A stretch of DNA of 64,000 bases from Sphingomonas faeni. Its GTDB lineage: Bacteria; Pseudomonadota; Alphaproteobacteria; Sphingomonadales; Sphingomonadaceae. The stretch lies in the NCBI RefSeq assembly GCF_030817315.1, contig NZ_JAUSZF010000001.1:914501-978500 (forward strand). Direction: 5' to 3'. Positions 896-15,994 of the stretch are shown piece after piece. The first letter of the stretch is position 1, and each line of letters starts with the position of its first letter. The position numbers and the translations under genes are program-made. The notes beneath the pieces were generated by a model, which saw only the letters and a program-made list of their open reading frames with translations, searched no databases and was not told the origin of the DNA.

Positions 896-2251
896 TCAGG
901 GGTGCGGCCGGCGTAGTCCACGGTGTGTGCGCGCCTCACGCAAGGTTGCGTTCGGGGTAAGGCCGTCCGCCGGCACCTTGGGTACGGCAAGCCGCTGCGA
1001 CAGGTAAATGCCGTTGTGGCCCGAGCATAGGTAAGCGATGAAGCAGGCCACAGCGATCGGCACCGCATAGGTAGCGCCGAACAGTTCGATGCCCATGAAC
1101 GTGCAGGCGAGCGGCGTGTTCGCCGCGCCCGCGAACAGTGCGACGAACCCGATCGCGGCGAACACGCCGGTCGGGACGCCAAACATCGGGGCGAGCGCGT
1201 TGCCGAGCGCCGCGCCGATGAAGAACAATGGTGTGACCTCGCCGCCTTTGAAGCCGGCGCTGAGGGTCACGACGGTGAACAGCAGCTTCAGCGCCCAACT
1301 CCACGGATGCGTGTCCGGCCCGAAGAAGTTGTCGATGGTAAGGCCGCCGGGCGTCGCCGCTAAAGTGCCAAGGCCAAGATAGTCGCGCGTGCCGAACAAA
1401 TAGACGAGCGCGATGACCGCGACCCCGCCGATCACAGGCCTGAGCGGGCCATAAGGAACGAGCCGCTTGAGCCATCCGCCCAGCGCGTGGTTGGCTTCGG
1501 CGAAGGCGAGACCTGCTAACCCGAATGCCACGCCGGCGATGCCGGCCTTTGCGACCAGCAATGCATCGACCGGCACGAGTGCATCAACCCGGTAGACGCC
1601 GTGATGGATACCCCAGGCAAGGCACGTCCAATCCCCGACCAGCGCGGCGGCCAGGCACGGCACCAGCGCGCGATACTCGACGCGCCCGATCGCCAGCACT
1701 TCCAGCGCGAACACGGCCCCCGCGATCGGTGTACCGAACACCGCCCCGAACCCGGCCGCGATACCTCCCATCAGGAGTATGCGGGTGCCGTCCGCGTCGA
1801 GCTTGAGCGCGCGACCGAAGCCACTGGCGAGGCTCCCGCCCAACTGGACGGCGGTGCCCTCACGTCCGGCCGAACCGCCGAACAGATGCGTCACCACCGT
1901 GCCGAAGAAGATCAGTGGTGCCATGCGCAACGGCACCCCGGCTCCCGGTTCATGTATCTGCTCGACGATGAGGTTGTTGCCGCCCTCCACCGAGCGACCC
2001 GCCAGATGGTAGAGCAGACCGACTACGAAACCACCCAGCGGCAGCAGGTAGAGCAGCCAGGGCAACGCGAAGCGCAGTCGCGTGGCGGCATCGAGGCTCC
2101 AGAGAAATGCCGCACACAGCGTCCCGACAAGTGCTGCCATCGGCACCAGGATCAGCGCCCAGCGAACCACGGATACGACATGGGCGTGACGGTTACGGGC
2201 GAACGCTGCAACGTTCAGACCGTCGAAGAGATTACGAAAGGTAGCGCGCAC
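896..2251 (-). CDS. CLC-family fluoride/proton antiporter (CLC-F type)
   Basis: 451-residue membrane protein of the CLC channel/antiporter family with about ten hydrophobic segments. The first ion-binding motif, which in chloride CLCs is GSGIP, reads GGNNLIVE near residue 92, and the second reads GREGT rather than GREGP; both departures are known from the CLC-F branch that exports fluoride in exchange for protons. The GKGG/GxFxP-like region is [12 protein letters not shown], also typical of that branch. The start is a GTG at 2251 preceded by an ideal AAGGAGG site. A fluoride riboswitch lies 30 bases upstream, which makes fluoride the likely substrate. Function would be inner-membrane fluoride resistance. 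The fluoride assignment is inferred from motif plus riboswitch; the family is certain. Confidence 0.9.
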
Positions 2252-2280
2252 GTTTCCTCCTTGCTGCCTTGCGGCGCCAA

Positions 2281-2345
2281 GTAGGAATCATCAGCTCTTG
2301 TCAGAGCGGTTCGGCGAAATGCCCGGCGGAAATCCATCGCCGTCG
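2281..2345 (-). promoter_or_regulatory. Fluoride riboswitch (crcB motif)
   Basis: Read on the minus strand this leader contains, in order, GGCGATGG, a C-rich loop with TTCCGCC, CGAACCGCTC, and GAGCTGATGATTCCTAC, the conserved blocks of the crcB RNA motif that binds fluoride. GCTC and GAGC pair to make the internal stem. The outermost helix P1 is imperfect in my pairing (GACGG against CCTAC gives only three pairs), so its exact ends are uncertain. The element ends 29 bases before the GTG of the CLC gene, close enough to the ribosome-binding site for translational or transcriptional control. Confidence 0.82.
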
Positions 2346-2437
2346 CGCGGCCCATGGGGGAACGAAGTGAACTCGTCAACTCCGTCCCGCACTCCTACCC
2401 ATAGCGGGTCGCGGGACGATCGTTGAAACCGACGTTC

Positions 2438-2842: not shown

Positions 2843-3766
2843 TTAGCGCATCGCTGGCGACCGGTTCCGGCGCAGGTTCGACCACCAGTAGGAGGCGAAG
2901 CCCCTGGCCTTGTGACGAAGGCGGAACCAGTAGAAATGCTTGATGCCCGCGTGCGTGGTGACAGGCCGTATCACGTCTAGGCGAACGTCAAAAATATCTG
3001 CGGCGATGGCGAGCAGAGCGCGCCGGTCGGAAAACAGATACTTGGCGTACAGGGCGCCATCACCGAAGCTGTAGCCCGCCAGCAATCGGGTTTCCTCCAC
3101 CGTATCACGACGTCCGTGATGGTGATCGACGACGATCCGCGGGTTGTAGAGAACCGCGACGCCCAACCCTGCGGCACGGAACAGAAAGTCCGTATCCTCG
3201 GCCGCCACGAAGGGGGCTCCGGCTCCGAACCGTTCGTCGAACCGTCCCGTCAACGTCACGACATCGGCGGTGAACGCGAGGTTCGCCCCCATGACGAAAC
3301 CGCCTAGGAATCCGCCCGATGGGGCGACCATGTCATGATCTTCAAGTTTTATGGTGACGGAAAGATCGGCCGGGTCGCCAAGAAGAATACGGCCGCCGAT
3401 GATCGTCGGTCCGCCGACGCTTTCGAACGCCGCGCGAAGGGCTGCGAAATAGTCGGCATGGAGGACGCAATCGTCATCCGTCATGGCGATGATACGGCCC
3501 CGACACAGCGCGAGCCCCGTATTGCGGGCACACGCAAGCCCCGGCCTCGGCTCTCGGACCAGATGGACCGGGAACGCCTGCATGGCTTGCCACGCCGCCA
3601 ACCGCTCTGGCGTATCATCGACGGAGCCATTGTCGACGAGCACGACTTCCACCGTCATGCCGGGCGCGTACGCAAAAGCTCGCCCGACGGAATCGAGCGT
3701 CGTCATGAGGGAGCCGGCACGGTCACGCGTACAGATCAGCAGGCTGACGTCGATGGCGGCAGTCAT
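2843..3766 (-). CDS. Family 2 glycosyltransferase (last gene of the inositol/YcaO operon)
   Basis: 307 residues, GT-A fold. The N-terminus DVSLLICTRDR and VVLVDNGSVDD are the nucleotide-sugar-binding start of GT2 enzymes, and AMTDDDC near residue 95 supplies the metal-binding DXD motif; AAEDTDFLFRA is the ED acceptor-side motif. The C-terminal part has amphipathic/hydrophobic stretches (RHKARGFASYWW) that may contact membrane. Its ATG at 3766 overlaps the stop of the upstream pyruvyltransferase-like gene as ATGA, implying translational coupling. Sugar donor and acceptor cannot be deduced. It is the thirteenth and last gene of the operon that begins at 15994. Confidence 0.88.
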   Translation of the reverse strand: MTAAIDVSLLICTRDRAGSLMTTLDSVGRAFAYAPGMTVEVVLVDNGSVDDTPERLAAWQAMQAFPVHLVREPRPGLACARNTGLALCRGRIIAMTDDDCVLHADYFAALRAAFESVGGPTIIGGRILLGDPADLSVTIKLEDHDMVAPSGGFLGGFVMGANLAFTADVVTLTGRFDERFGAGAPFVAAEDTDFLFRAAGLGVAVLYNPRIVVDHHHGRRDTVEETRLLAGYSFGDGALYAKYLFSDRRALLAIAADIFDVRLDVIRPVTTHAGIKHFYWFRLRHKARGFASYWWSNLRRNRSPAMR

Positions 3767-4695
3767 CTTGTGGCGAGAAGCCCGTCGGCAAGACTCAGGG
3801 CTTCCTCCATCGTCGCAGCCTTCGTCACGATCTCTTTTGGGAAGGACCAGGCATCCAGATACTTGGCGATCTTGCCGTACTCATTGTCCAGTACGACGTG
3901 CGGAATACCCAGCAGGTCTGAAAGTATGTGCCCATGCAGTCGGTCCGTCACGACGACCCGGCCTTGCGCGAGCAACCGCAGTCCACGATCGACGCGTGCA
4001 ACCGCTTGAGCCTCGCGTGCTATGGCGTCGACGCCGACCGGTAAGTCTGGATCGTCCTCCAGCCAATCTGCGACGATCGCCTGGGTCGTCGATGGCATGG
4101 CGTAGCCCTGCCGCTCGTCGTCGGTGCGCATCAGCATCAGCAGGTCGCACTGTGGCGGGCCTGCCGATCGTTCGCCCAGTGCATACGCAGAGTCCGGAGC
4201 GAGGTGCGATGGGCATGACAAATGCTTCCGGGCGAAGTCCAAGCTGCGCGTATCGCGGACGTACAGGACGAAGTCCGGATGGTCGGCGACGAGCGTGGCG
4301 AACCGGTCAACCTGCGCAAGTACGCGGAAATGGACCGACTGGGGGAGCTGCACGACCGTTCGATCGCGGATCGTTGCGAGGATATGCTCGCGAAACCGCT
4401 GGTGATGCGGCCAGATGTCGCCGAGGTTGCCGCCGCCATGTAAAAACAGGATGCCGTCGGGGCAGGCGTCGCGAAAGGCATCGATCTCGAAATCGTGCCA
4501 GGTCGAAACATAGCACGGATCGCGCCCGGTTATCTGGCGTAGCAGGGCAAGCTCGCCGAGCCAGATCGCGCTGTCGCCGACGTTCGCGTGATCCGGAAAG
4601 TCGACCAGCGCATAACGCGATCCGGGTGCCACGTGCGTCCGATAGACTGTAGCGAGAATGGTACGCTGTGCCGTCAGGTGATCACTGGCCGTCAT
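3763..4695 (-). CDS. Polysaccharide pyruvyl transferase family protein
   Basis: 310 residues from the ATG at 4695, whose ATGA overlaps the stop of the preceding glycosyltransferase; a longer frame upstream lacks support. Motifs of the pyruvyltransferase family are visible: HANVGDSAIW near the N-terminus, LHGGGNLGD in the middle, and DRLHGHILSDLLGIPHV with the conserved Arg and His near residue 260. Family members add a ketal pyruvate to sugars from phosphoenolpyruvate, though many act as ordinary glycosyltransferase-like enzymes. With glycosyltransferases on both sides it probably decorates the same glycan. Cytoplasmic; no signal or membrane segment. Confidence 0.85.
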   Translation of the reverse strand: MTASDHLTAQRTILATVYRTHVAPGSRYALVDFPDHANVGDSAIWLGELALLRQITGRDPCYVSTWHDFEIDAFRDACPDGILFLHGGGNLGDIWPHHQRFREHILATIRDRTVVQLPQSVHFRVLAQVDRFATLVADHPDFVLYVRDTRSLDFARKHLSCPSHLAPDSAYALGERSAGPPQCDLLMLMRTDDERQGYAMPSTTQAIVADWLEDDPDLPVGVDAIAREAQAVARVDRGLRLLAQGRVVVTDRLHGHILSDLLGIPHVVLDNEYGKIAKYLDAWSFPKEIVTKAATMEEALSLADGLLATR

Positions 4696-5765
4696 GCACG
4701 CTGTCCCAATCCGTGGCCGATGACATCGCGGTAGAGGCCCTCGCATCGGTCGAGCCACCGATCACGCGTGAACGCGGTCTCGACACGATCGCGCTGCGGT
4801 TCGCGGGGGCGTTGGACCGCGTCGGTGATAGCGCGGGCAAGGGCTGGAACGTCGCCGGGCGGTGCGAAACATCCTGTCTCGCCGATGATCTCCCGCAAGG
4901 CGCCACGATCGAACGCCGCCACCGGCAGGCCGCACGCCATCGCCTCGATCGCGACCAGTCCGAACGGCTCGTCCCAGCATGGCGTAAAGACGAACACAGA
5001 GGCGCGGCCCATTTCCCGTGCCAACGCCGCGGCATCCAGATGTCCGCCATATCGGATGCTACCGTCGATCAGCGGCGCGACGTCGGCGTCCCAATAGTCG
5101 CGATCCTCGATCGGTCCGAACAGGGTCAGCGGGACGCCGGCGATCCGGGCCGCCTGCGCTGCCAGATGCGGCGCCTTGTCCGGCGTCATCCTTCCGCACC
5201 AGACCGCGCTGCCGTCGCCTCGCTCGACGAAAGGCCATGCGTCTGGGGCGATGCCGTTATGCAGCACCGACGCTTCGCGTGGCGGTCCGTCCGGCCACCA
5301 GGCGGCAAGCTGGTGCGCAGAAGTCGCTGTAAGGTGGTGGGTCGGCGCCGCGCTGGCGTGCACGAACCAACGGAGCGCATCATAGGGCGGGACGTGCAGC
5401 GACGTGACCGTCGGCACCCTTGCGGTCCGCGCGGGCTCGAGCGGAAAGCGATGCAGGCTGTTATTGTGTACCACGTCGAAGCCATCGGCGGCGATCCGGT
5501 CGCAAGCGGCGGCATAGCCTTCGTCGAGATGGGCGATCAGCGGGGCGAAGCCGAGGTGTTCGGCGTCCGGAAAAGTGCGGTCGTAAGCTTCGGGGATCAC
5601 GGCATCGATTGCGAACTGAGGGTCGCTATCGCCCGAGGCGAACAGCACGACGTCGTGTCCGCGACCCCGTAGCCCCGCCGCCAGATGCCAGCATTGCGAT
5701 TCCATCCCGCCGGCAAATGGTTGGGCGATCGGCTGGCGGACATGGCAGAGAATTGCGATCCTCAT
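4692..5765 (-). CDS. Family 4 glycosyltransferase
   Basis: 357 residues from the ATG at 5765 (MRIAILCHVRQPIAQPF), which fits the family start better than the longer open frame. Rossmann GT-B fold: glycine-rich PFAGGMESQ near residue 20 and the C-terminal donor site EPFGLVAIEAMACGLPV with the E-x7-E pattern characteristic of GT4 enzymes. It starts 7 bases after the stop of the upstream GT2 gene and its own stop overlaps the next gene as ATGA. The donor is a nucleotide sugar of unknown identity. Part of the 13-gene operon; probably extends the glycan started by the other transferases. Confidence 0.9.
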   Translation of the reverse strand: MRIAILCHVRQPIAQPFAGGMESQCWHLAAGLRGRGHDVVLFASGDSDPQFAIDAVIPEAYDRTFPDAEHLGFAPLIAHLDEGYAAACDRIAADGFDVVHNNSLHRFPLEPARTARVPTVTSLHVPPYDALRWFVHASAAPTHHLTATSAHQLAAWWPDGPPREASVLHNGIAPDAWPFVERGDGSAVWCGRMTPDKAPHLAAQAARIAGVPLTLFGPIEDRDYWDADVAPLIDGSIRYGGHLDAAALAREMGRASVFVFTPCWDEPFGLVAIEAMACGLPVAAFDRGALREIIGETGCFAPPGDVPALARAITDAVQRPREPQRDRVETAFTRDRWLDRCEGLYRDVIGHGLGQRA

Positions 5766-5772
5766 CGGGCTC

Positions 5773-6702
5773 TCATTCGGCCGCCGCGGCTCGTTCGGTC
5801 GCCGCCAGCCGATCTTCCAGGAGACGGATGACGGTCGCGGTATTGGCATAGGGCTGATGGCTTTGCTGTCCGGTCAGCGCAAGATCGGCGGCGTCGGGGC
5901 GTCGCAGGATGCGGATCGGCCGACCCGGGGTCGGGTCGATCAGGCCCATCAGGCGGAATGCTTGGAGCCAGTGGCCCATCGTCCGATAGCCCCACTTGGT
6001 CTCGAACAACTCGGCATTGCGCACCACGCTGTCGAGATGGTGCACCGGCGGCATGTGGTGCGGATGATATTGGTGATAGGCCAGACCGCCCTTGATCCAC
6101 GCGATCGCCACGCCAGCCTCGTCGAGCGCCTTGCCGAAATCGGTGTCCTCGCCGCCATACCCGACATAGCGTTCGTCGAAGCCGCCGAGGTCGAGGAACG
6201 TCGTCGTTCGCATGGCGAAATTGAGCGACCAGAAACAGCGATAGTCGGTGCAGATTTCGATGCCTTGCGGCGGTGGGCCGCGGCGGTCCGAATGCTTCAC
6301 CGCGATCTCGGCGAACCGGTCGTACTGCCAGTCGCCCTCGGTCGCGCCGCCCGGCAGGTACAGGACTTCGCCCATCAACAGCCCGTCGAACGTGTCGAGG
6401 AACCCGGCATAATCGGAAAGCAGCGTGGGCGTCGGAATGCAGTCCATGTCCAGAAACACGATGACGTCGCCGATCGCCGTGCGCGCCGCGGCGTTACGCG
6501 CCGAAGCGAGTGGCAAGGCGTCGGCGACGACCTGAATCTGGCGGATGGGGAAGGGCGCCTCGGGCAGGTCGTACAGATCGTCCTGCATTACCGCGACGAT
6601 CAGTTCGGTCGGCATCAGCGTCTGGCGTATCAGGCCGCGGACGACGTTGACGAGGTGGTCGGGACGCCCCTTGCCCAGGGTGACGACAGAAACTTCGGTC
6701 AT
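5773..6702 (-). CDS. Family 2 glycosyltransferase, galactosyltransferase-like C-terminus
   Basis: 309 residues. The start MTEVSVVTLGKGRPDHL and the LDMDC motif near residue 95 are GT2 features. The acceptor region reads GGFDERYVGYGGEDTDFG, the arrangement found in the galactosyltransferase-type GT7/GT2 fold, so a hexose donor is plausible but unproven. A His-rich stretch, AYHQYHPHHMPPVHH, follows and is unusual. The gene is separated from the PIG-L gene by 52 bases, the largest gap in the operon, and no peptide gene fits there. Cytoplasmic, no signal peptide. Confidence 0.88.
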   Translation of the reverse strand: MTEVSVVTLGKGRPDHLVNVVRGLIRQTLMPTELIVAVMQDDLYDLPEAPFPIRQIQVVADALPLASARNAAARTAIGDVIVFLDMDCIPTPTLLSDYAGFLDTFDGLLMGEVLYLPGGATEGDWQYDRFAEIAVKHSDRRGPPPQGIEICTDYRCFWSLNFAMRTTTFLDLGGFDERYVGYGGEDTDFGKALDEAGVAIAWIKGGLAYHQYHPHHMPPVHHLDSVVRNAELFETKWGYRTMGHWLQAFRLMGLIDPTPGRPIRILRRPDAADLALTGQQSHQPYANTATVIRLLEDRLAATERAAAAE

Positions 6703-6754
6703 GGCGATGGCTCTGCTTGGAATAGGGGGACGCGGGGCGGCTGTTGGCGGTCGC

Positions 6755-7450
6755 TCAGTGCGTGTGAAGCGGGTAGAAGCGTTCCTCGACGATCCGCGCA
6801 GTCCGCTCCGTCATTGCGTCGACGCCGCCGAACTGGAAGCCCAGTTGCGACCCGTACGCGGCACAGGCGGCAATCCGCCGCGCGCGCGTTTCGGGGGTAA
6901 GGCGTTCGGTCAGCGCCGGCATGGCGGCAACCCGGTCTTCACGATCGGCATAAGGCCAGTCTTCCCACAGCAATACTGTATGATCGGCACAGGATCGCCG
7001 TATCGCATCCAGAACGACGTGATGGTCGACATGGTTGCCGAGGCATAACGGCCCGAGGATTAGATCCGGCCTTTCCGCCGCGAAAAGTTCGGCCAGCGCG
7101 GTCGCGACATCGCTTATAATCCGATCATCGGGCAGCCGTGCCTCGAACAACATCTTTGCCGAGGTGTAACCGCGATGCGGTGCTTCCAGAAACGGGAGGT
7201 GGATCGCGCTCGCCCCAAGTGCCCGGCACGCTGCGACATCCTCGGCACGGCGCAGCGCCATGTAGTCGACGTCGGCGCCCAAGCCTTTGTCGAGCTGGCA
7301 TGCCAGCGCGAACCCGGTTGGCTGCGCGACGTTGCCGGTGAAGCATGTCGCGACGGTGACGTCCCAGCCTTGATCGACGCGGGACGCCAGCAGCGCACCG
7401 GCGGAGAAGGCGGCATCGTCCAGATGCGGTGATATCGCGAGCAGCTTCAT
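6755..7450 (-). CDS. PIG-L (LmbE) family N-acetylglucosaminyl deacetylase
   Basis: 231 residues. SPHLDDAAFS at residues 7-16 holds the zinc-binding His and Asp-Asp of the PIG-L/MshB family, and GNHVDHH near residue 138 supplies the third metal ligand. Family enzymes are zinc hydrolases that remove N-acetyl groups from sugars linked to inositol or lipids, for example MshB in mycothiol synthesis and BshB in bacillithiol synthesis. Here it sits between glycosyltransferases in an operon that begins with inositol-1-phosphate synthase, the same combination of activities, which suggests deacetylation of an N-acetylhexosamine-inositol type intermediate. That substrate is inference. Confidence 0.88.
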   Translation of the reverse strand: MKLLAISPHLDDAAFSAGALLASRVDQGWDVTVATCFTGNVAQPTGFALACQLDKGLGADVDYMALRRAEDVAACRALGASAIHLPFLEAPHRGYTSAKMLFEARLPDDRIISDVATALAELFAAERPDLILGPLCLGNHVDHHVVLDAIRRSCADHTVLLWEDWPYADREDRVAAMPALTERLTPETRARRIAACAAYGSQLGFQFGGVDAMTERTARIVEERFYPLHTH

Positions 7451-7457
7451 CGGTCGC

Positions 7458-8666
7458 TCACAGCAGGTGCGGCTCGCTGCGGAAGCGGCAGGGCGTCATC
7501 GGCAGGTCGGTATCGAAGGCGGTCTGCGGATGGCCACGCAGGTCGCGGTAGATCCCGACGATCTGCTGTCCGACAGCGTCCCAGCTATACACCCGGCGGC
7601 ATTCTTCGAGCGCGGCCGTGGCCAGGCGCGCGCGCAGGCTCGTATCGGTGACTACACGGGTCAGCGCGGCCGCCAGGCCCGGCACGTCGCCGGGATCGGT
7701 CAGCAGGCCGTTCTCGTCGTCGCGGACGCAGTCGACGACCCCGACGGCGTGGCACGAAACGACCGCAAGGCCGCATGCCATCGCCTCAAGGATGGTGTTC
7801 GAGAACCCCTCGGCATAGGTCGGCGACACGAAGACGCCGTGCGCACGGTAGAGTTCGGGGACGGCGTCATAGTCGGCATAGCCGCTGAACGTCACGCGGT
7901 CCGTAAGTTCGAGTTCGACCGCGAGCGCCTGCGCGGTTTCGACGTCCGGACCGATCCCGGAGATGGTCGCATGCCAACCCCCTCTTACGTCCGGTAGCGC
8001 CTCAAGGAAGTCGAGCACGCCTTTGCGACGGTCGACGCGGCCATGGTAGAGCAGGCGGACCGGGCCTTCGGGCGCGGCTTTCGATGCCGGCGTGAAATGA
8101 TCGGTATCGACTGCGCCCGGAACAATCGTGAACCGGTCGAGCGGCGTGCCGAGTCGGTCGTGGACTTCGCCCGCGAAACTGTTGCCGCCGATCAGCAGCG
8201 CGCCGGCGCTATCGAGCACGCGCACCATCGCCAGCCGGTGCGTCTCGCAGCACGATCCGACCCAATGCCCGTCGCCGCCCTGGATCGACACGACGCAGGG
8301 CAGTCCAAGGCGCCGGGCCGCGATCATCGTGGCCCAGCCGGTCGGATAGCCATATTGCGCGTGAAGCATGTCGAACGGATTCACGGCATGGTCGCGGGCG
8401 ATGGCCTCGACGATTGCGTCTATGTCGCGCTCGAAGTCGCCGCCATCCTGTTCGCCCAGCGCTTCTAGGCCGACGACGCGCACGCCCGGCACCGGGGGTG
8501 GGGGGCCGCCGCCATAGACGCGGGCGCGTGCGGGATCGCCGTAATATTGGCTGATCATCGTCACGTCGTGGCCGGCCGCGACGAGTTGCCGCAACAGGTT
8601 GATCGCGTAGATCGACATGCCTGATATCGCGGGGAAAAAGCGACGCGAGACGAAGCATATCCGCAT
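7458..8666 (-). CDS. Family 4 glycosyltransferase
   Basis: 402 residues, GT-B fold. The start MRICFVSRRFFPAISGMSIYAINLL is the acceptor-domain loop of GT4 enzymes; YHGRVDRRKGVLDFLEAL begins the donor domain and EGFSNTILEAMACGLAVV carries the E-x7-E motif. Its ATG overlaps the stop of the upstream TIM-barrel gene (ATGA), and the PIG-L gene follows after 7 bases, so these two are probably coordinated: GT4 then deacetylase is the MshA-MshB or BshA-BshB order. I infer that this is the transferase that adds the amino-sugar precursor; a UDP-GlcNAc donor cannot be read from sequence. Confidence 0.9.
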   Translation of the reverse strand: MRICFVSRRFFPAISGMSIYAINLLRQLVAAGHDVTMISQYYGDPARARVYGGGPPPPVPGVRVVGLEALGEQDGGDFERDIDAIVEAIARDHAVNPFDMLHAQYGYPTGWATMIAARRLGLPCVVSIQGGDGHWVGSCCETHRLAMVRVLDSAGALLIGGNSFAGEVHDRLGTPLDRFTIVPGAVDTDHFTPASKAAPEGPVRLLYHGRVDRRKGVLDFLEALPDVRGGWHATISGIGPDVETAQALAVELELTDRVTFSGYADYDAVPELYRAHGVFVSPTYAEGFSNTILEAMACGLAVVSCHAVGVVDCVRDDENGLLTDPGDVPGLAAALTRVVTDTSLRARLATAALEECRRVYSWDAVGQQIVGIYRDLRGHPQTAFDTDLPMTPCRFRSEPHLL

Positions 8667-9496
8667 CAGGACAGGGCCCCCCGGAGATAGGCGATCGATT
8701 CAGGAATGGCCTGATGCGCGCGCGGGCTTTCACGCGATAGTTCGACGCATACCAGCTTGTCGAAGCCGATCGACTTCAGCGCGGCGAGGATGACGGGTAT
8801 GTCCATGTCGCCCTGACCGAAGGGGAGATGCGTGTGATCCCCTCGGCGCATGTCCTCGACCGCGACCGTCCCGAGGCGGTCGGCATAGGCGCGTACAGCG
8901 GCATCGGGGGCGATATCCTGCGTGACGAGGCAGTGCCCGGTGTCGAGCGCGAGCCGCAGGTCCGGGTGGTGGATCGCGAGCCGCGCATAATCCGCGACGG
9001 TCTCGATCAGCATGCCGGGCTCGGGCTCCAGGCTGACGGGGATGCCCGTGCGCGCGGCGTGCTCGACGACCTTGCCCAGCCCCTCGTCGAGCCAGTCGAG
9101 GGCATCCGCGTGGCGCACGTCGGGCTTGGGCACGCCCGCCCAGAACGACACGGTCTCGGCGTTCAGGATTGCTGCGACCTCAAGCGCGCGGGCGAGGAAT
9201 GCGACGCGACGGTCACGTCCTTCGGAGTCCGCCGTGACGAGGGTCGGCTCGTGCTTGTCGCGTGGGTCGAGCAGATAGCGTGCGCCGGTCTCGATCACTG
9301 ACCCCAGACCGAGCGACCGCAACAGCGCGCCAACACGTTCCGCCTCGCGCGTCCAGTCGTCGGCGAAGGGATCGAGGTGGTGATGATCGAGCGTTAGCGC
9401 GACGCCGTCATAGCCGGCATCGGCGATCAGGTGCAGCGCGTCGTCAAGCCGGTGGTTGGCCGCACCGTTGGTGTTGTACGCGAAACGGAGCGTCAT
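8666..9496 (-). CDS. Sugar phosphate isomerase/epimerase-type TIM barrel (IolE/IolI-like)
   Basis: 276 residues from the ATG at 9496, which overlaps the YcaO stop as ATGA. Xylose-isomerase-like TIM barrel: GYDGVALTLD near the first strand, SLEPEPG (metal Glu), LALDTGH (metal Asp and His) and LVCVELSRE (final metal Glu) are the metal-binding positions of this superfamily. Members include inosose dehydratase IolE and inosose isomerase IolI, so in an operon headed by inositol-1-phosphate synthase and holding a Gfo/Idh oxidoreductase a role on a keto-inositol is attractive. This reaction is inferred from context only; the fold is confident. Confidence 0.85.
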   Translation of the reverse strand: MTLRFAYNTNGAANHRLDDALHLIADAGYDGVALTLDHHHLDPFADDWTREAERVGALLRSLGLGSVIETGARYLLDPRDKHEPTLVTADSEGRDRRVAFLARALEVAAILNAETVSFWAGVPKPDVRHADALDWLDEGLGKVVEHAARTGIPVSLEPEPGMLIETVADYARLAIHHPDLRLALDTGHCLVTQDIAPDAAVRAYADRLGTVAVEDMRRGDHTHLPFGQGDMDIPVILAALKSIGFDKLVCVELSRESPRAHQAIPESIAYLRGALS

Positions 9497-11019
9497 CTTG
9501 CCGCCTCCGTCTCGAGGCTCTGTTCCGACCAAGCGACGTGATGCGCCTCGGGCTCGCGGTAGAGCGGGTAGAGCGGCCCGACGATGGCGTCTGCCAGCGC
9601 AGTGTCGAAGAAGGGCTGGCCTCCCAACCGGGCCATGGCCTCGTCGGTCAGGCGAACGGGGCGTCGCGTCGCGCTTTCCTCGCCGCCGAAGCTGACCAGC
9701 GGGCTGTCGAGGGCGACCAGCTTGGCGACGTTGCGCTCGCCGATCCGGTAATAGCTCATCGTCTCAACTTCCATGCCGGGCACGATCACCTTGACGACCG
9801 CGACGCTGGCGTCGGCGGGGGACATATCGACGTAGAAGATGTCGAACCCGGCCGCCTCGACCGCCTCCCTCGCAAGCTGCCCGCGCGCCCGTGCATCGGG
9901 CACGTCGGCGCGCGGCAGGTCGGCGAAGGCGCGACGGCTGCGCTCGGCGAGCATCGTGTCGGCCAGCCATGCGCGCAGCGTCGCGGCATCGACATCGACA
10001 TCGGTCCAGCGCCGCATCTCGGCGAAGGCGCGACCGTCGCTCGATTTGGCGGCACCGCCAGCCTGCGCCATGAACCGGTCGACATACCCGCGCGGGGCGA
10101 TCGACCTGGCGAGCGCCATCGGGCCGTGTGCGAACGCTTTGCGCGCGCGACTGGCGGCATATTCGGCGATCGCCTTCGCCAATGCCTGCACCGCGTCGGG
10201 ATGCGCCGCCTCGCCGCAAGCCGTCGCCATGATCGGTACGGCGGGCTCGCGCGCATCGACGCCGACGCAATAGACGTTCGCCATGCCGAACTCGTCGGTG
10301 GCGAATTTCGGGATCACGCGGATGCCGGCCGCGGCGAACCGGTTGATCAGGTCGCCGATCTCGCCGGGCAGGCTTTCCGGCAGGTCGATCGCGACGCCGC
10401 GGTCGAGCGCGCGGAACAGCAGCCCGTTGCCGTCGCGCTGGAGGATTTCGCACAGCCCGTGGCCGATCGCCCAGTCAAGGTCCGGCCCTGCGCCCATCCC
10501 GTTGGAGATGATGGTCGTGAACGGCACATAGCCGGGGTCGAGTTCCTTGGCCGAATAGGCGGCAAGGTCGGTCGGCACGAGGACGCTCGATCCGTCCGCC
10601 CAGCGCCGGGCCTCGACCCAGTCGAGCGGCGTGTCGCGGTCGACCGGCGATCCCGCGGGCAGGCACAGCGTCAGCGGATCGGCGATCCCGCGCATGCCGC
10701 GTTCGCGGACGAGCTCGGCATAGCTGCCCTGCGTCTTGCCGCGCGCCGACAATGTCAGCGTCGGCCAGACCATCTCGGCGATCTCGCCCAGCGCGCTCAG
10801 GATCGCGGCCTCGTCGGTCGCGCCATAGCCGACGCCGTACGGCATGATGCCGTCGAGGTCGGCGGTCTCCGGGAACAGCGCGACCACCCAGACGGGTATG
10901 CCGACGCGGTCGATGCCGTCGATCGGAAACGCGACGATGTCGCCGGCGGGAAATGCATCGAGATACAGACGGCAGGCCGCGCCGAGTTGCTCGGGAAGGC
11001 CGGTGATGCTGCGAGTCAT
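9493..11019 (-). CDS. YcaO-domain ATP-dependent cyclodehydratase/thioamidation-type enzyme
   Basis: 508-residue YcaO protein. The ATP/Mg-binding signature is complete: ALGEIAE near residue 77, ISNGMGAGPDLDWAIGHGLCEILQRD at 171-196 (discontinuous motif with SNG, E191, R195, D196), GEAAHPDAVQALAKAIAEY near 268, and VPGMEVET in the C-terminal region. YcaO enzymes phosphorylate amide oxygens to let a thiol, hydroxyl or sulfide attack, giving azolines, amidines or thioamides; most act on ribosomal peptides, but the 6-thioguanine pathway shows a small-molecule use. No TfuA, E1-like or dehydrogenase partner and no precursor peptide gene lies nearby: both ends overlap neighbours (ATGA at 11016-11019 and at 9493-9496). 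A non-peptide substrate is therefore likely. Confidence 0.93.
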   Translation of the reverse strand: MTRSITGLPEQLGAACRLYLDAFPAGDIVAFPIDGIDRVGIPVWVVALFPETADLDGIMPYGVGYGATDEAAILSALGEIAEMVWPTLTLSARGKTQGSYAELVRERGMRGIADPLTLCLPAGSPVDRDTPLDWVEARRWADGSSVLVPTDLAAYSAKELDPGYVPFTTIISNGMGAGPDLDWAIGHGLCEILQRDGNGLLFRALDRGVAIDLPESLPGEIGDLINRFAAAGIRVIPKFATDEFGMANVYCVGVDAREPAVPIMATACGEAAHPDAVQALAKAIAEYAASRARKAFAHGPMALARSIAPRGYVDRFMAQAGGAAKSSDGRAFAEMRRWTDVDVDAATLRAWLADTMLAERSRRAFADLPRADVPDARARGQLAREAVEAAGFDIFYVDMSPADASVAVVKVIVPGMEVETMSYYRIGERNVAKLVALDSPLVSFGGEESATRRPVRLTDEAMARLGGQPFFDTALADAIVGPLYPLYREPEAHHVAWSEQSLETEAAR

Positions 11020-11831
11020 AGCGGGATCCTCTTCACGCCCGGCGCGCGGGACAGCGCTTCGTCCAGCACCGCGACGGCGACGTCGCGACCGACTTCGGGG
11101 GCATATTCGAACGGAGTCAGGACGGCGTCGAACGCCAGCGGCGCGATCACGTCTCGATACTGGCGGATCTCGCCATGTGTCAGCGGGATGTCCTTGTGGA
11201 ACGCCTTGTGGCTGGAGATCGCGTGGCTGATGCCCGCCTCGTCCTGGTCGATCTTGAACATGTCGCCACAGAACAGGCGGCGGCCGACCGCGTCGTGGAG
11301 TGCCGCCTGTCCCTCGTAATGACCACCGACGTGATGCAGCGTGTAGCCAGGCGCGATCTCCAGCACGTCGTCATACGGCGTCGTGACGCGGAACGCCTTG
11401 GTCATGCCGAGGTCGTCCTTGTGGATCGCAAGCATCTCGGGCGCGCACTCCCGCTGGAGCTGGAACAGCGCGCCATAGCCATGCGCATGGCTGGCCGCGA
11501 GATAGCGGATGCCGCCGAGCCGCGCGATCTGCGCGAGCATCGCCGGCGAATAATAGGGTGCGGCTTCGAACGCGATGTTGCCGCTCTCGCGCACGATCAG
11601 CCAGCCGGTGCCACCAAGCCCAAGGTGCGGCGTGGTGGTGAACGCCCAGAGATCGTCGGCGACCTGTCGCCAGCTACCGTCGTGACTCGCCGCAACCTCG
11701 TGCTCGGGGAGAAAGCACCAGCCATCCTCGGGCAGGTCGTTGCGCGTATCGTTGCAGACCGGGCAATCGGCGGGCGCGAAATGGCGCTGCCAAAAGCCGC
11801 AATGCGCGCAGGCGTACCAGCTCAAAGGCAT
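11016..11831 (-). CDS. Metallo-beta-lactamase-fold protein with N-terminal zinc ribbon and altered HxHxDH
   Basis: 271 residues. C8-x2-C11 and C23-x2-C26 (CAHC, CPVC) form a zinc ribbon or rubredoxin-like knuckle at the N-terminus. The beta-lactamase-fold core follows: SHAHGYG around H115/H117 in place of HxHxDH, GGH at H171, and CGD at D190. The Asp-His pair that would hold the second metal is replaced by Tyr-Gly, so at most one metal site (H115, H117, H171) is expected. This could be a hydrolase, a redox protein or a metal/sulfur-handling partner of YcaO next door. Start codon ATG at 11831 lies within the end of the Gfo/Idh gene; its own stop overlaps the YcaO start. Confidence 0.85.
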   Translation of the reverse strand: MPLSWYACAHCGFWQRHFAPADCPVCNDTRNDLPEDGWCFLPEHEVAASHDGSWRQVADDLWAFTTTPHLGLGGTGWLIVRESGNIAFEAAPYYSPAMLAQIARLGGIRYLAASHAHGYGALFQLQRECAPEMLAIHKDDLGMTKAFRVTTPYDDVLEIAPGYTLHHVGGHYEGQAALHDAVGRRLFCGDMFKIDQDEAGISHAISSHKAFHKDIPLTHGEIRQYRDVIAPLAFDAVLTPFEYAPEVGRDVAVAVLDEALSRAPGVKRIPL

Positions 11832-12817
11832 GATCGCGCCTCGGTATAGGCGGCGTCGAAAAGGCGCATCAGCGACAGGTCCCGGTCGATGGAAAAATCA
11901 TGCGCCTCGCCGCGGACCGCGGCGGCGAACGCGGCGGCCTGTGCGGCAAACGGCGACAGCGCGGCGCCGAAGGGCAGGGCGGTTTCCTCCCCGGTCCGCG
12001 CGCAACGGCGGATCACGGTGCCGCCCTCGGTCTGGCCCATCGTGTTCGTGGCGACCAGCAAGCCGCCCTCGCCGAGGATCTCCAGCCGGCGGCGGGGCAA
12101 CACTTCGGGGCAGTTATAGGCGACATGGCTCTGGACCAGCACGCCGCCTGCGGTGCGACCCGACAGAATGCCGCCATCGTCGACCGGATAGTCGTGAATG
12201 CGCCGCTGCAGGTCGATGTGCAGGCGGTCGAGCGGTTCGTCGACCAGCATCGCCGCTAGGTCGAGACCGTGCAGCGCGAGGTCGATGACCGCACCGCCGC
12301 CCGCTGCTGCCGGATCGGCGCGCCAGTTGCAGCCATCGCCGATGGCGGACGGCGACCAGCTAGGGTCGACCCAACACGCATAGACGATCCGGACCGCGAT
12401 CGGGCGGCCGATCGCACCGTCGCGGATCGCCTGCGCCATCGCCCGGTGCGCGGGGTGGTGGCGCTGGTCGAACGCGGTGCCGTACAGGTGTCCCGCAACC
12501 GCCGCGCCGATCGCTTCGGCGTCGGCGAGCGTCGCGGCGATCGGCTTTTCGCACAGCACCGGCACGCCGGCCGCGACCGCCGCGCGGACCGGGTCGGCAT
12601 GGCGATTGTTGGGCGTGGCGACATAGACGCAGTCGAGCGCGGCATCGGCCAGCATCGCCTCGGCGGTATCGTAGGCGAGTATCCCACCCGACATCGCGCT
12701 GGCCTGTGCCATCGGGGATGGGTCGGCGATCGCGACCAGCGTCCCGCCGGCCGCGGCGATGCCCGGCGCCATGTAATCGCGCGCAACCCAGCCGAAGCCG
12801 ACGATCCCCCAGCGCAT
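11822..12817 (-). CDS. Gfo/Idh/MocA family NAD(P)-dependent oxidoreductase
   Basis: 331 residues from ATG 12817 (MRWGIVGFGWVARDYM); a GTG at 12823 in the same frame overlaps the methyltransferase stop and is an alternative. Rossmann GxGxxA/G at residues 5-10, the family signature CEKPIA near residue 97 with its catalytic Lys, and GGGAVIDLALHGLD in the C-terminal sheet. Members oxidise or reduce sugar and inositol carbonyls, including inositol 2-dehydrogenase IolG. Within this operon an inositol or amino-sugar oxidation is plausible, inferred only from context. Overlaps the downstream gene by 10 bases. Confidence 0.9.
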   Translation of the reverse strand: MRWGIVGFGWVARDYMAPGIAAAGGTLVAIADPSPMAQASAMSGGILAYDTAEAMLADAALDCVYVATPNNRHADPVRAAVAAGVPVLCEKPIAATLADAEAIGAAVAGHLYGTAFDQRHHPAHRAMAQAIRDGAIGRPIAVRIVYACWVDPSWSPSAIGDGCNWRADPAAAGGGAVIDLALHGLDLAAMLVDEPLDRLHIDLQRRIHDYPVDDGGILSGRTAGGVLVQSHVAYNCPEVLPRRRLEILGEGGLLVATNTMGQTEGGTVIRRCARTGEETALPFGAALSPFAAQAAAFAAAVRGEAHDFSIDRDLSLMRLFDAAYTEARSCL

Positions 12818-12819
12818 GG

Positions 12820-13929
12820 TCACCACCGCGCCGGTAGGTCGAGGACGCGACGGTTCCGCGCGGGATCGCCAGCATCCGTCAGCCATGTGGCCGCAGCGCC
12901 ATATTCCGCGCGGTAGCGATCGGAGGGCCATCGCGGGGTATCGCCGTCGAGCAACGGATTCTGCTTTAGAACCGCATCGGCGAGGGGCATCGCCAGTCCA
13001 CCGGTCAGCGCCCGCGCCTTGACGCCGTCCGCCCCGCCGCCATCTGCTTCGACGATCGACCATGCCTCGATAGCGGAATCATCGGACCACTGGGTCGAGG
13101 CTGGCGCATCGGCCGCGAGCAGAGCGCGGCGTAGCTCGCGCTCGTCATAAACGGCCGCATCGGGGAACAGCGCAGCCCATTCGGCCCCGGCGCGCGCCGG
13201 TCCCATCGCACCGCCGGCGACCGCGGCATTGTGGAGGTGGCTGACCGCGAGCACGCCGCCGGGCGCGACGGCCGCGCGCAGCAGTCGGGCGACCCGCGGC
13301 TGATCGGGCAGGAAATACAGGGCGTCGTGGCACCCGACGAGGTCGAAGCGCTGCGTCTCGACCGGCCAGCCCGCGGCTGCGTCGAACACGACATACTCCG
13401 CCTCGGGCGCGACCCAGTGCTTCGCCAGCCAGCATTTCGAGAACACGACGTCCGCGCCGACGCACGCAACCCCGCGCGCCGACAATTCGCGCAAATAATG
13501 GCCGATGCCGCACGCCAGTTCGAACGCGGTAGCCGGCTGCCGCCAATGCGCTTCGATCAGCGCGAGCCCGGCGAGGTACGTCGGGTCGCTCCAGCGATGC
13601 GCGAAATAATCCGCCACCGGTCCCATCCGCAGCAGCGCCATCGCCGCGCGCAACGACAGCGTCTCGCGCTCGCGGACGAGGCGTTTCAGCTCGCGAAGAT
13701 CGGTCGCCGGGCCGGTCCACCACGCATCCTGGTCGGTCAGCAGCGCAACCAGCGCATCGTCCGGACAGTCCGCGTCGAGATGGTCGAGTGCGACCGCCAC
13801 CAGCCCCTCGCTGTCGGTCCGCAGATACGGGATCCCGTCGACCACCGGCCAGCGCTCGCCGGGTGCGGCCAGCGAATGCGGCGTGTCGGCGACGAGCGGC
13901 CGTCCCGTGAGGGGAGAGCGATAGGTCAC
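12820..13929 (-). CDS. Class I SAM-dependent methyltransferase
   Basis: 369 residues from a GTG at 13929 that overlaps the preceding stop (GTGA). An N-terminal domain of about 150 residues beginning YRSPLTGRPL has the look of a Trm112/zinc-free beta segment, then the SAM site FELACGIGHYLREL near residue 165 (motif I) and VVFDAAAGWPVETQRFDLVGCHDALYFL with motifs II-IV. About 90 C-terminal residues after the core are not recognised. It probably methylates the operon product or an intermediate. The ORF is longer upstream in the same frame, but overlap geometry favours this start. Confidence 0.87.
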   Translation of the reverse strand: MTYRSPLTGRPLVADTPHSLAAPGERWPVVDGIPYLRTDSEGLVAVALDHLDADCPDDALVALLTDQDAWWTGPATDLRELKRLVRERETLSLRAAMALLRMGPVADYFAHRWSDPTYLAGLALIEAHWRQPATAFELACGIGHYLRELSARGVACVGADVVFSKCWLAKHWVAPEAEYVVFDAAAGWPVETQRFDLVGCHDALYFLPDQPRVARLLRAAVAPGGVLAVSHLHNAAVAGGAMGPARAGAEWAALFPDAAVYDERELRRALLAADAPASTQWSDDSAIEAWSIVEADGGGADGVKARALTGGLAMPLADAVLKQNPLLDGDTPRWPSDRYRAEYGAAATWLTDAGDPARNRRVLDLPARW

Positions 13930-14819
13930 AGCAGGCCGACGTTGGCCAGCACGCGGTCGTGGAAGTCCTTCACGGGACCTGCATGGACGAGCTCGTAGGT
14001 GTGGAGGACGCTGTCCATCGCCGCCGAGGCGGCGCGCAGATGCTGCTCGATCTCCAGCACGCGGTCGAGCACGTCGGCGGCATGGAACGCGCGTGCCGCC
14101 GGCGTCGCGTCGCCGGCGATCGGCGCGATCGCCGCGCGGACCTGCGCTGCCACCGCCGGATCGAGCATCGCCATCGCCTGTTCGCGCGCACCGTCGATCA
14201 CGCGGTCGAGCAGGTCGCCGAGCAGCACCTCGCCGGTGAACCCCGCATCGGGCATCGCCGCATTGTGGAAATGATGCGCCATCGACGCGAGGAACACCTC
14301 CGCCGGATCGGCGCCGTAACCGGGCGCCGCGAGCACACCGTACACCGCGACGATCAGGCAATGCTCGGCATGGTTCTCGGGCGGCTGGAGCAACAGCCGC
14401 GGCCGACCCGGACAGGTGACACCCGCGCGCGGTTGCGTCGCGAGCTGGGTAACGAACCGTGGTACCGGCCCGGCCGCCGGCGCGCCCTCGGCAAGCGCCT
14501 TGCGCAAATCGGCTGCCAGCGCCGGGTCGACCTGCACCGCGATCTCGTCGAACCCGCGTTCGAGCACGGCGCAGGCTTCGGCATCCGACAACCCAAGCTC
14601 TGCCAGCGTGGCGCGGTCCAGATCACCCAATCGTGCCGCGGCAAGCGCGGCCGCGGCGGTACGCCGCATTACTCCCGCCGGAGCCTCGCCCGCCGCCAGC
14701 GCCGCCCAGCCGCGCGCGAACAACCGCTCCGCGATCGACCCGTCGCGATCCGCCGACCGGATCCGCTTCAGGTCGCCAAGCTCGCGCAACAGCGGCAAAT
14801 GCGCCGCACTCAGCATCAC
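13926..14819 (-). CDS. HD-domain-like protein with HD replaced by HH
   Basis: 297 residues. The N-terminal 120 residues are helical and unassigned. The middle shows an HD-type metal site: NHAEHCLIVAVYG (H150, H153), then AHHFHNA (H182-H183, H185) where a canonical HD protein would read HD, and AFHAADVLDRVLEIEQ with the distal Asp. Substitution of the metal-bridging Asp by His would change the metal chemistry, so phosphohydrolase activity cannot be assumed; HD folds also include oxygenases such as inositol oxygenase. It directly follows inositol-1-phosphate synthase (start GTG 14819 or ATG 14816 overlapping its stop), so dephosphorylating or oxidising inositol phosphate is a reasonable guess. 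Confidence 0.65.
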   Translation of the reverse strand: MMLSAAHLPLLRELGDLKRIRSADRDGSIAERLFARGWAALAAGEAPAGVMRRTAAAALAAARLGDLDRATLAELGLSDAEACAVLERGFDEIAVQVDPALAADLRKALAEGAPAAGPVPRFVTQLATQPRAGVTCPGRPRLLLQPPENHAEHCLIVAVYGVLAAPGYGADPAEVFLASMAHHFHNAAMPDAGFTGEVLLGDLLDRVIDGAREQAMAMLDPAVAAQVRAAIAPIAGDATPAARAFHAADVLDRVLEIEQHLRAASAAMDSVLHTYELVHAGPVKDFHDRVLANVGLL

Positions 14820-15994
14820 CGACGGTCGAGCCAGGTATCGAGGATCAACTGCTGCTCGCCGAAGGCGTGGATCGGCTCGCCGCCATCGGCGGTCTGCGGC
14901 ATCTTGAAGAAAATCCCCATCTGATCCTGCACGCCGCCTTCACCGCGCGTCTGCGCCAGTGCCAAGCACCGTGCGATCTCGATCGCGAGCGGGGCCGCCA
15001 GCACCGAATCCTTGCACAGGAAGTTCAGCTTCAGCTGCATCTTCTGGCCGAGGAAGCCGGTCAGGTCGATATTGTCCCACGCTTCCTTGTTGTCGCCGCG
15101 CGGCTTGTAATAATGGATCATGATGATGTGATCCTCGACCGGATAGCCGAGGATCTGGTCGAGCACCGACTTCTTGGTATCGACCTTCGAGGCGAGGCTC
15201 TTTGGGTCGTCGAGCGCGAGGCCATCCGAATTGCCGAGGATGTTGGTCGAGAACCAGCCATCGACGTGCAGCGCACGATCCCGCAATGCCGGCGCTATCA
15301 CGGTTTTCAGCAACGTCTGGCCGGTCTTGCCGTCCTTGCCGGCGATCGGCACGCCGCGCTGGCGGGCGAGTTCGGCAAGCGGCGCGACGTCGGCGGCGAC
15401 CGACGGCGTGAAATTGGCATAGGGCGTGTCACTGGCAATCGCGGCATAGGCGTAGAGCATCGCCGGGCTGATCGCCGCATCGTCGCCGTCTAGGCCACGT
15501 TCAAAGCCCTCGACGCTGGTCAGCGCGTCGGCCCCGAGATCGGCCTTGCGCTCGGTCGAGGCGAGATTGACCATCACCACCCGGTCGAGATTCTGCTCGG
15601 ACTTGAAGCGCGCGAGATCGTCCTGGATGTGCTTGACCGCCGCACGGTGACCGGGGGCGGCGATCTTGTTGGCTCCGTCGATATTGGCACAAAAGTCGGT
15701 CGACCCGACCGCGGGCCAAGGCCGCATGTCCGACAGGCTTGCAGCGCCATTGGCAAGATCGCTCTCCGTCAGCACGCCGTGCTTCAGCGCGGCGGTCGCG
15801 AGGTCGTCATGGCTAAGATCCCAACCGCCAAAATGGAGGTCGCGGTATGCCGCCATGCCCTCAACGTCGCGGCTGGCGAGCGGCAGGCCCGACAGGTCGT
15901 TCGACCCTGCGCGGATCATCGCGATACCCGCGGCAGCAGTAGTGGCCACCGCGCCATTCAGCCCGATCACTGCGATCCCGACCCGTTCGCCCAT
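14816..15994 (-). CDS. myo-Inositol-1-phosphate synthase
   Basis: 392 residues. Converts glucose 6-phosphate to 1L-myo-inositol 1-phosphate with bound NAD. The dinucleotide fold starts at GIAVIGLNGAVATT (residues 6-19); MVNLASTER and DKYPYANFTPS-like elements follow, GKDGKTGQTLLKTV is the active-site lysine loop, and LKLNFLCKDSVLAAPLAIEI near residue 330 is the C-terminal family signature. The length matches short bacterial forms. Start ATG at 15994 with an AGAGGA site 8 bases upstream; it is the first gene of a 13-gene operon, so the operon's raw material is probably inositol phosphate. No phosphatidylinositol synthase is nearby, which argues against membrane inositol lipid as the only product. 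Confidence 0.95.
   Translation of the reverse strand: MGERVGIAVIGLNGAVATTAAAGIAMIRAGSNDLSGLPLASRDVEGMAAYRDLHFGGWDLSHDDLATAALKHGVLTESDLANGAASLSDMRPWPAVGSTDFCANIDGANKIAAPGHRAAVKHIQDDLARFKSEQNLDRVVMVNLASTERKADLGADALTSVEGFERGLDGDDAAISPAMLYAYAAIASDTPYANFTPSVAADVAPLAELARQRGVPIAGKDGKTGQTLLKTVIAPALRDRALHVDGWFSTNILGNSDGLALDDPKSLASKVDTKKSVLDQILGYPVEDHIIMIHYYKPRGDNKEAWDNIDLTGFLGQKMQLKLNFLCKDSVLAAPLAIEIARCLALAQTRGEGGVQDQMGIFFKMPQTADGGEPIHAFGEQQLILDTWLDRR

Follow-up and report, generated by a model that had tools for sequence, protein, structure and literature searches.

Does a closely packed run of 13 genes in Sphingomonas faeni encode a single biosynthetic pathway, and, if so, what might that pathway produce? 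The locus occupies positions 2843..15994 of a 64,000 nt stretch of S. faeni DNA (hereafter the window), and its genes are numbered from g1 at the 15994 end to g13 at the 2843 end. The first nine encode, in order, an inositol phosphate synthase (Ino1), an HD-fold protein, a methyltransferase, a Gfo/Idh oxidoreductase, a protein of metallo-beta-lactamase (MBL) fold, a YcaO enzyme, a TIM barrel, a GT4 glycosyltransferase and a PIG-L deacetylase; the last four comprise three further glycosyltransferases and a pyruvyl transferase. Comparison across genomes splits the genes into a conserved nine-gene core (g1–g9) and an optional four-gene tail (g10–g13), and we see about an even chance that the core is a self-contained pathway to a small glucosaminyl-cyclitol metabolite. 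An earlier note on this DNA had read all 13 genes as one pathway fed by inositol phosphate; what endures of that proposal is the oxidoreductase/TIM barrel pair, YcaO, methylation, glycosylation and deacetylation, whereas the 13 genes do not hold together as one set.

The compact layout described in that note, with 13 minus-strand genes overlapping or nearly touching, is borne out by inspection of reading frames and spacing. None of the 13 open reading frames (ORFs) has an internal stop, and from g1 to g13 neighbours are spaced by -4, -4, 2, -10, -4, -4, -1, 7, 52, 7, -4 and -4 bases, the widest spacing being 52 bases in the whole locus and 7 bases within g1–g9. Third-position GC content is 0.72–0.87 for the 13 ORFs. 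The longest possible ORFs were judged to start too early for g3, g4, g7, g11 and g12, for which starts were set at 13929, 12817, 9496, 5765 and 4695, respectively. From their overlaps, the 13 genes are probably transcribed as a single unit; a promoter scan of the locus returned none against 1.8 expected, and a terminator scan returned seven against 6.4 by chance, which is the chance level.

The core emerges from a scan of species genomes with a YcaO alignment, which yielded 57 loci: 40 alphaproteobacterial, six from Bacteroidota and 11 actinobacterial. As these were collected through YcaO, counts of the other core genes are conditional on its presence. The alphaproteobacterial loci derive from Sphingomonas, Erythrobacter, Porphyrobacter, Polymorphobacter and relatives, Acetobacteraceae, Caulobacter, Caulobacteraceae and metagenome-assembled genomes (MAGs) of Hyphomicrobiales. 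Matches to g1–g9 occur in the same order and on the same strand in 35 of the 40, contig ends truncating the remaining five, and this identical arrangement excludes chance for g1–g9; in L042, counted amongst the 35, g4 and g5 survive only as remnants. Pairwise distances of the core proteins correlate at 0.75–0.96, values that fit joint inheritance, though they are inflated by shared descent. The Bacteroidota loci (four Hymenobacter, Solirubrum and Neolewinella) all contain g1, g2 and g4–g8, with PIG-L in five of the six (L046 is cut) and the methyltransferase in a single one. In three Hymenobacter, MBL and YcaO form a single ORF. Gene families in the flanks (~5 kb) of the 40 alphaproteobacterial loci were built with a codon-score caller, which misses or shortens some genes, such as the MBL gene of L045 and most of L039 (found by tblastn); beyond the 13 genes and one Crp/Fnr-type regulator family (F9), no family found there exceeds 10 of these loci. 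The regulator lies directly before g1 in 23 of the 40 (e.g. L018, 4046-4828, the member from which the Pfam assignment comes), and is absent from the loci closest to the window (L004–L014).

The tail behaves differently from the core. At >200 bits, 12 of these 40 loci carry it, with all four genes in 11 and L011 lacking g11 (g10, g12 and g13 in 12/40 each, g11 in 11/40), and in L019 it is inverted. The remaining 28 loci show no tail, although L015, L033 and L059 among them end too soon to tell. Even within S. faeni two records differ, the tail being present in L012 and missing from L004. Identity of L018 to the window is 75–94 % for g8–g13 as against 66–78 % for g1–g7, a jump which suggests that the glycosyltransferase end has been exchanged. 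A single 13-gene pathway was rejected because its final four members are optional and, in L019, inverted. All four lie on the minus strand of the window: g10, a GT2-like glycosyltransferase (5773..6702; PF02709 E 3.8e-09, PF00535 E 1.3e-06); g11, a GT4 glycosyltransferase (4692..5765; PF13692 E 1.5e-19); g12, of the polysaccharide pyruvyl transferase family (3763..4695; PF04230 E 1.3e-28); and g13, a GT2 glycosyltransferase (2843..3766; PF00535 E 4.4e-18).

Searches with a profile of the HD protein extend the distribution. Amongst 398 Pseudomonadota genomes six match: that of the window plus five from a single genus, identified as Methylobacterium from the YcaO of L069, which shares 98 % identity with its counterpart in Methylobacterium sp. 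Leaf106 and otherwise matches Methylobacterium and Methylorubrum. Within Methylobacterium the HD marker is present in 108 of 111 genomes sampled. The five clusters read there contain g1–g4 and g6–g9 in order, the MBL gene being missing from each; it is encoded elsewhere in 7/7 Methylobacterium genomes checked, and in the five that were read it is 43–45 % identical to g5. That this gene lies outside the cluster and yet occurs in all seven genomes, and that it is fused to YcaO in three Hymenobacter, indicates that the MBL protein goes with the pathway. The genes surrounding this separate MBL gene in Methylobacterium were considered as extra partners and rejected, there being no family common to all five loci read. 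The HD profile matches two of 247 Bacteroidota genomes, one being the search centre, and so adds a single Bacteroidota carrier; in the window's class it matches 2/289 genomes, own included. For Sphingomonadales, the order in which the earlier note had proposed to look for co-occurrence, YcaO is found in 3/196 genomes, again including the window's own, so that the signal there is patchy and the strong one lies outside the order, in Methylobacterium. Outside that genus the cluster is rare and patchy.

Plasmid records also carry the cluster: eight core genes in M. aquaticum MA-22A, with MBL missing; all nine in Roseomonas haemaphysalidis; and eight in Hymenobacter volaticus, with the methyltransferase missing and Gfo/Idh annotated as two pieces. 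M. bullatum likewise matches HD and YcaO. Next to the cluster on the Roseomonas plasmid, and near repA/repB, are two genes of the spore photoproduct lyase family (L093, 14819-16940). The cluster has apparently moved between phyla.

Actinobacterial clusters turned up through the HD profile instead of YcaO. The HD gene is present in eight of 12 genomes of the Kineococcus vitellinus family, K. vitellinus itself being without it, and in all seven of the eight loci that were read, HD, Gfo/Idh, MBL, YcaO, GT4 and PIG-L follow in the same order. The methyltransferase is present in only two of these seven. Since it is also missing from five of the six Bacteroidota loci, methylation as an essential step is not sustained. 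Ino1 is absent from all seven Kineococcus clusters, and exactly one match to it lies outside the cluster in each of the seven genomes, which is what a pathway fed by inositol phosphate would predict. Actinobacteria produce this compound on the way to mycothiol, and amongst 14 control genomes six match the Ino1 family (including Corynebacterium glutamicum) and eight do not. The 11 actinobacterial YcaO homologues of the first scan (L047, L049–L058; 39–43 % identity), from Klenkia, Modestobacter, Quadrisphaera, Kineococcus and an Actinomycetales MAG, were rejected as pathway members: the other eight core proteins match in none of these loci, and the HD profile is missing in 9/9 tested of their 11 genomes. 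Families F14, F15 and F18, read from their sequences as a sugar ABC transporter, lie near YcaO in eight of the 11.

What, then, do the core proteins resemble? Pfam backs the families proposed in the earlier note for 11 of the 13 products (MIPS, methyltransferase, Gfo/Idh, YcaO, TIM barrel, GT4, PIG-L, GT2, GT4, PS_pyruv_trans and GT2); g2 and g5 match nothing in Pfam at E 0.001, and their HD-like and MBL assignments are upheld by AlphaFold2 models and profile scans. Curated NCBIfam cut-offs were applied to ten products, g1–g9 and g12. All nine core genes are on the minus strand. The myo-inositol-3-phosphate synthase (Ino1/MIPS) g1 (14816..15994) clears both Pfam cut-offs (PF07994, 187.6 bits vs 25; PF01658, 115.4 bits vs 27), and its nearest solved structure by sequence is the inositol-3-phosphate synthase 7nwr (E 6.8e-78). 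Its motifs GKDGKTGQT and GDxKEAWDN, with the conserved lysine and aspartate that we take to be catalytic, are invariant across 31 aligned sequences. The HD-fold protein g2 (13926..14819) is YfbR/HDDC2-like, with its HD dyad changed to HH; its model (predicted local distance difference test score, pLDDT, 94.5) is matched to HD phosphohydrolases by VIA-align, Foldseek alone giving no match at E 0.001. A class I S-adenosylmethionine (SAM) methyltransferase is encoded by g3 (12820..13929; PF13489 E 1.1e-11, PF08241 E 2.2e-09), whose GTG start overlaps g2 (GTGA).

The NAD(P) oxidoreductase of the Gfo/Idh/MocA family, g4 (11822..12817; PF01408 E 3.3e-22), is inositol-dehydrogenase-like, although its best NCBIfam model, the IolG equivalog TIGR04380, scores 85.4 bits vs a cut-off of 355; its EKP and DxxxH motifs, presumably catalytic, are invariant in 31 sequences. 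A rubredoxin-like Cys4 stretch is combined in g5 (11016..11831) with an MBL fold (pLDDT 92.7), in which the two-metal motif HxHxDH is degenerate (HxHGYG; the window reads HAHGYG), with H115, H117, H171 and D190 invariant in 26. The YcaO protein g6 (9493..11019), an ATP-dependent amide-activating enzyme by family, passes both PF02624 (181.5 bits vs 25.7) and TIGR00702 (92.8 vs 75.65); E79, E82, E191 and E286, which we assume to be its ATP-binding acidic residues, are invariant in 18. The xylose-isomerase-like TIM barrel g7 (8666..9496; PF01261 E 3.9e-37), of sugar isomerase/epimerase/dehydratase type, has an IolE protein as its best PDB sequence match (E 3.7e-05) and IolO as its best NCBIfam model, far under the equivalog cut-off, with E157, D185, H188 and E252 invariant in 31. 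In the GT4 glycosyltransferase g8 (7458..8666; PF00534 E 4.5e-33) the EX7E motif (E286, E294) is invariant in 31, and in the PIG-L deacetylase g9 (6755..7450; PF02585 E 3.7e-18) HLDD and GxHVDH are invariant in 30; the PDB matches of g9 are headed by the deacetylase Dbv21, followed by those for teicoplanin (Orf2).

From families and motifs, g1 would convert glucose 6-phosphate to myo-inositol phosphate, g8 would add a sugar, probably N-acetylglucosamine (GlcNAc), to an inositol-derived acceptor, and g9 would then expose an amine by deacetylation, in the manner of early mycothiol synthesis. The remaining steps are more conjectural. The HD protein may remove the phosphate, act on a phosphorylated intermediate or use its altered metal site in some other way; g4 and g7 could oxidise and then isomerise, epimerise or dehydrate the cyclitol, following IolG plus IolE/IolI-like logic; and g3 would provide an optional methylation. 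YcaO, with g5 as its partner, may use ATP to make a carbonyl reactive towards an amine or sulfur; as the operon has no peptide gene, that carbonyl would belong to the product, as part of an amide or a vinylogous amide. In some strains g10–g13 may further glycosylate and pyruvylate the product, which is most likely a glucosaminyl-inositol-type metabolite bearing a YcaO-activated group. The host range suggests a stress-protective small molecule, not a core cofactor.

Several observations weigh against this pathway. Every step after inositol phosphate is read from families whose substrates differ widely, and the GT4 and PIG-L proteins fall short of the cut-offs for MshA/MshB and BshA/BshB, so that GlcNAc is only a presumed sugar. 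The dyad of g2 is H181-H182, invariant in 29 sequences, rather than the His-Asp dyad and catalytic Glu of YfbR/HDDC2, and N185 in the window occupies, by spacing, the position of YfbR E72 (a residue taken from PDB titles); g2 may thus not be a phosphatase. The Cys4 stretch of g5 is incompletely kept in L092, and in L042 (9287-11497) part of g4 and most of g5 are deleted, the remnant being fused to YcaO, which reflects either a decayed cluster or an assembly error. In Kineococcus the TIM barrel, found in six of the seven loci, shares only 33–35 % identity and lies on the opposite strand (the seventh locus, L102, ends near HD). A second Ino1 was found in three of seven non-Kineococcus genomes scanned (the window's own, one Methylobacterium and one Hymenobacter), and g1 need not, therefore, be the sole source of inositol phosphate in S. 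faeni. The second inositol phosphate synthase domain of the window's genome lies outside the operon (C1:687272-687598).

Other products may be envisaged for the same enzymes. Synthesis of a head group or surface glycan, that is an inositol-containing glycolipid or polysaccharide to which the glycosyltransferases of the tail add decoration, is unlikely. It draws on 7nwr as the nearest solved relative of g1, the Bacteroides source enzyme of which presumably serves inositol-lipid synthesis, and on the strain-variable and apparently swapped tail (L018), as in surface-glycan loci; against this, no lipid transferase, flippase, polymerase or export gene is amongst the 13 products, and most alphaproteobacterial loci (28/40, with the three early-ending ones counted) show no tail. 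The earlier note raised a new low-molecular-weight thiol as one of its possible products, and a thiol or thioamide cofactor, in which YcaO places sulfur on glucosaminyl-inositol in parallel to mycothiol, would account for Ino1, GT4 and PIG-L, which parallel mycothiol enzymes, as well as for the resemblance of g6 to MJ1094, a YcaO of the McrA-thioamidation type (E 1.2e-21 with a profile). This proposal is weakened, and now appears decidedly unlikely, since the MshA, MshB, BshA, BshB and mycothiol Ino1 models stay below their cut-offs, neither a cysteine ligase nor a sulfurtransferase is amongst the 13 products, and bshB1 adjoins the cluster in Hymenobacter volaticus. Furthermore, the GSH-S_ATP domain scores 223–240 bits in the window's genome and in 3/3 Methylobacterium, making other thiol routes likely there. 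Elsewhere it is found in 0/3 Kineococcus, 1/2 Bacteroidota (73.7 bits) and 8/14 controls, including Bacillus subtilis and archaea; as some matching controls are without glutathione, the domain is not proof, but a glutathione synthetase is likely. Taken with what is known of the hosts, this makes a replacement thiol less likely in them. Ergothioneine, too, is reported for Methylobacterium in a passage of PMC12573535.

A slim chance is given to a mycosporine-like sunscreen, for which g4 would oxidise inositol, the IolE-like g7 dehydrate it to an enolic cyclohexanedione and g3 O-methylate it before an amine is joined, YcaO then activating the vinylogous amide so that a second amine yields an ultraviolet-A (UVA)-absorbing vinylogous amidine. 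The enzyme set fits this chemistry on paper, the hosts include Methylobacterium, Sphingomonas, Hymenobacter and Kineococcus, and the two spore photoproduct lyase family genes adjoin the cluster on the Roseomonas plasmid. Known mycosporine pathways, however, use a dehydroquinate-synthase-like cyclase and an ATP-grasp ligase, domains which are not amongst the 13 products, and the methyltransferase is absent from most Bacteroidota and Kineococcus loci. Many carriers belong to genera typical of exposed surfaces, record titles of carriers include Leaf isolates and lichen MAGs, and the host genera hint at a role under light or drying; the habitat link is, however, uncontrolled for taxonomy. Passages of a solar-panel study name Hymenobacter, Methylobacterium and Kineococcus amongst the isolates or metagenome of sun-exposed panels, but remark on how few isolates were UV-resistant (PMC6297676), and a passage of a photoreceptor paper cites UVA-absorbing compounds, including methylobamine, for methylobacteria (PMC9664959). 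A kasugamycin-type aminocyclitol antibiotic, joining D-chiro-inositol to an amino sugar with an amidine, is very improbable: an IolG/IolI-like pair could make D-chiro-inositol and YcaO the amidine, but no conserved resistance or export gene was seen within the ~5 kb flanks of the 40 alphaproteobacterial loci, and near-universal carriage in Methylobacterium would be unusual for an antibiotic. The YcaO family is best known from ribosomally synthesised and post-translationally modified peptides (RiPPs), and the SagD model scores 113 bits, albeit under its cut-off. An ordinary RiPP locus beside unrelated sugar genes has, nevertheless, next to no probability, as no precursor-size gap exists between core genes, no E1/ThiF or TfuA partner is amongst the 13 products, and the same sugar enzymes accompany YcaO in both alphaproteobacterial and Bacteroidota loci.

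The glucosaminyl-cyclitol pathway remains the favoured interpretation, and it appears to be undescribed. In the open-licence literature, nothing was found on YcaO with inositol, a glycosyltransferase and Sphingomonas; on YcaO with inositol-1-phosphate synthase, with a low-molecular-weight thiol or with PIG-L; or on a UV-absorbing compound together with three of the carrier genera and a biosynthetic gene cluster. For YcaO and Methylobacterium it yielded only an Acetobacteraceae study, which, in the part available, places YcaO in a different context; the accessible portions of work on methylobamine and UVA-absorbing Methylobacterium compounds give no gene cluster for such a compound, and the titles amongst the matches listed for inositol synthesis all concern eukaryotic inositol synthesis or eukaryotes. 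A cluster of this composition hence seems undescribed there, although it may be described elsewhere. To that extent the earlier note, whose author knew of no described cluster of this kind, is supported.

We regard the core as a real biosynthetic pathway that is conserved across three phyla and seems to be mobile; what it starts from, and the kinds of enzyme it uses, can be guessed on good grounds. There is a small probability that it defines a new class of small molecule, inositol-derived and amino-sugar-bearing, in which YcaO and a dedicated rubredoxin-MBL partner activate a non-peptide, possibly vinylogous, amide. If true, this would extend YcaO chemistry from peptides to sugar and cyclitol metabolism and give a first function to this MBL protein; if the product were a UVA-absorbing cyclohexenimine, it would represent a second, independent origin of mycosporine-like sunscreens amongst sun-exposed bacteria of three phyla. 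The pathway may account in part for the tolerance of exposure shown by bacteria of leaves, dust and deserts, and the near-universal presence of its marker in a genus as tractable and much studied as Methylobacterium makes it of high interest.

On either side of the operon lie genes of other kinds. Upstream is a gene for a CYTH-CHAD protein (window 16832-18319, minus strand). After the operon, a fluoride riboswitch (2275-2350, minus strand; 47.1 bits) sits just upstream of a CLC-type channel gene (896-2251, minus strand), the two being read as an ordinary fluoride-export unit.

With regard to known systems, one close parallel is to mycothiol (Ino1, MshA, MshB, MshC and MshD), in which inositol phosphate synthase, GT4 and PIG-L likewise meet in one pathway. 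The cluster nevertheless falls under the cut-offs (TIGR03449, 77.2 of 462.5; TIGR03445, 20.8 of 224.35; TIGR03450, 35.7 of 638), has no MshC- or MshD-like product amongst its 13, and adds HD, Gfo/Idh, TIM barrel, methyltransferase, MBL and YcaO. Bacillithiol (BshA, BshB and BshC) shares the GT4 and PIG-L pair, but the cluster is again under the cut-offs (TIGR03999, 77.8 of 273.7; TIGR04001, 22.8 of 182.5) and contains an inositol phosphate synthase, with bshB1 being a separate adjoining gene in H. volaticus. With YcaO systems, namely McrA glycine thioamidation (MJ1094, the nearest solved sequence to g6) and the cyclodehydratases of thiazole/oxazole-modified microcins (TOMMs), it shares a full YcaO domain and the acidic residues of the ATP site. 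The SagD model TIGR03604 reaches 113.3 bits vs a cut-off of 219.25, and intergenic room of at most 7 bases within g1–g9 (52 in the whole operon) leaves no precursor peptide gene between core genes, although such a peptide might be encoded elsewhere in the genome; membership of the mycothiol, bacillithiol or RiPP systems was rejected on the curated cut-offs. Whilst those YcaO systems involve a peptide substrate, ThiF or TfuA, this operon has no gene for any of these, and the partner of its YcaO is the rubredoxin-like MBL protein, fused to it in three Hymenobacter. Lastly, the pairing of Gfo/Idh with an AP_endonuc_2 TIM barrel recalls iol inositol catabolism (IolG, IolE and IolO). Here, however, the 13 products include neither kinase nor transporter, g4 and g7 lie far under the equivalog cut-offs, and the pair is instead linked to the synthesis of inositol phosphate.

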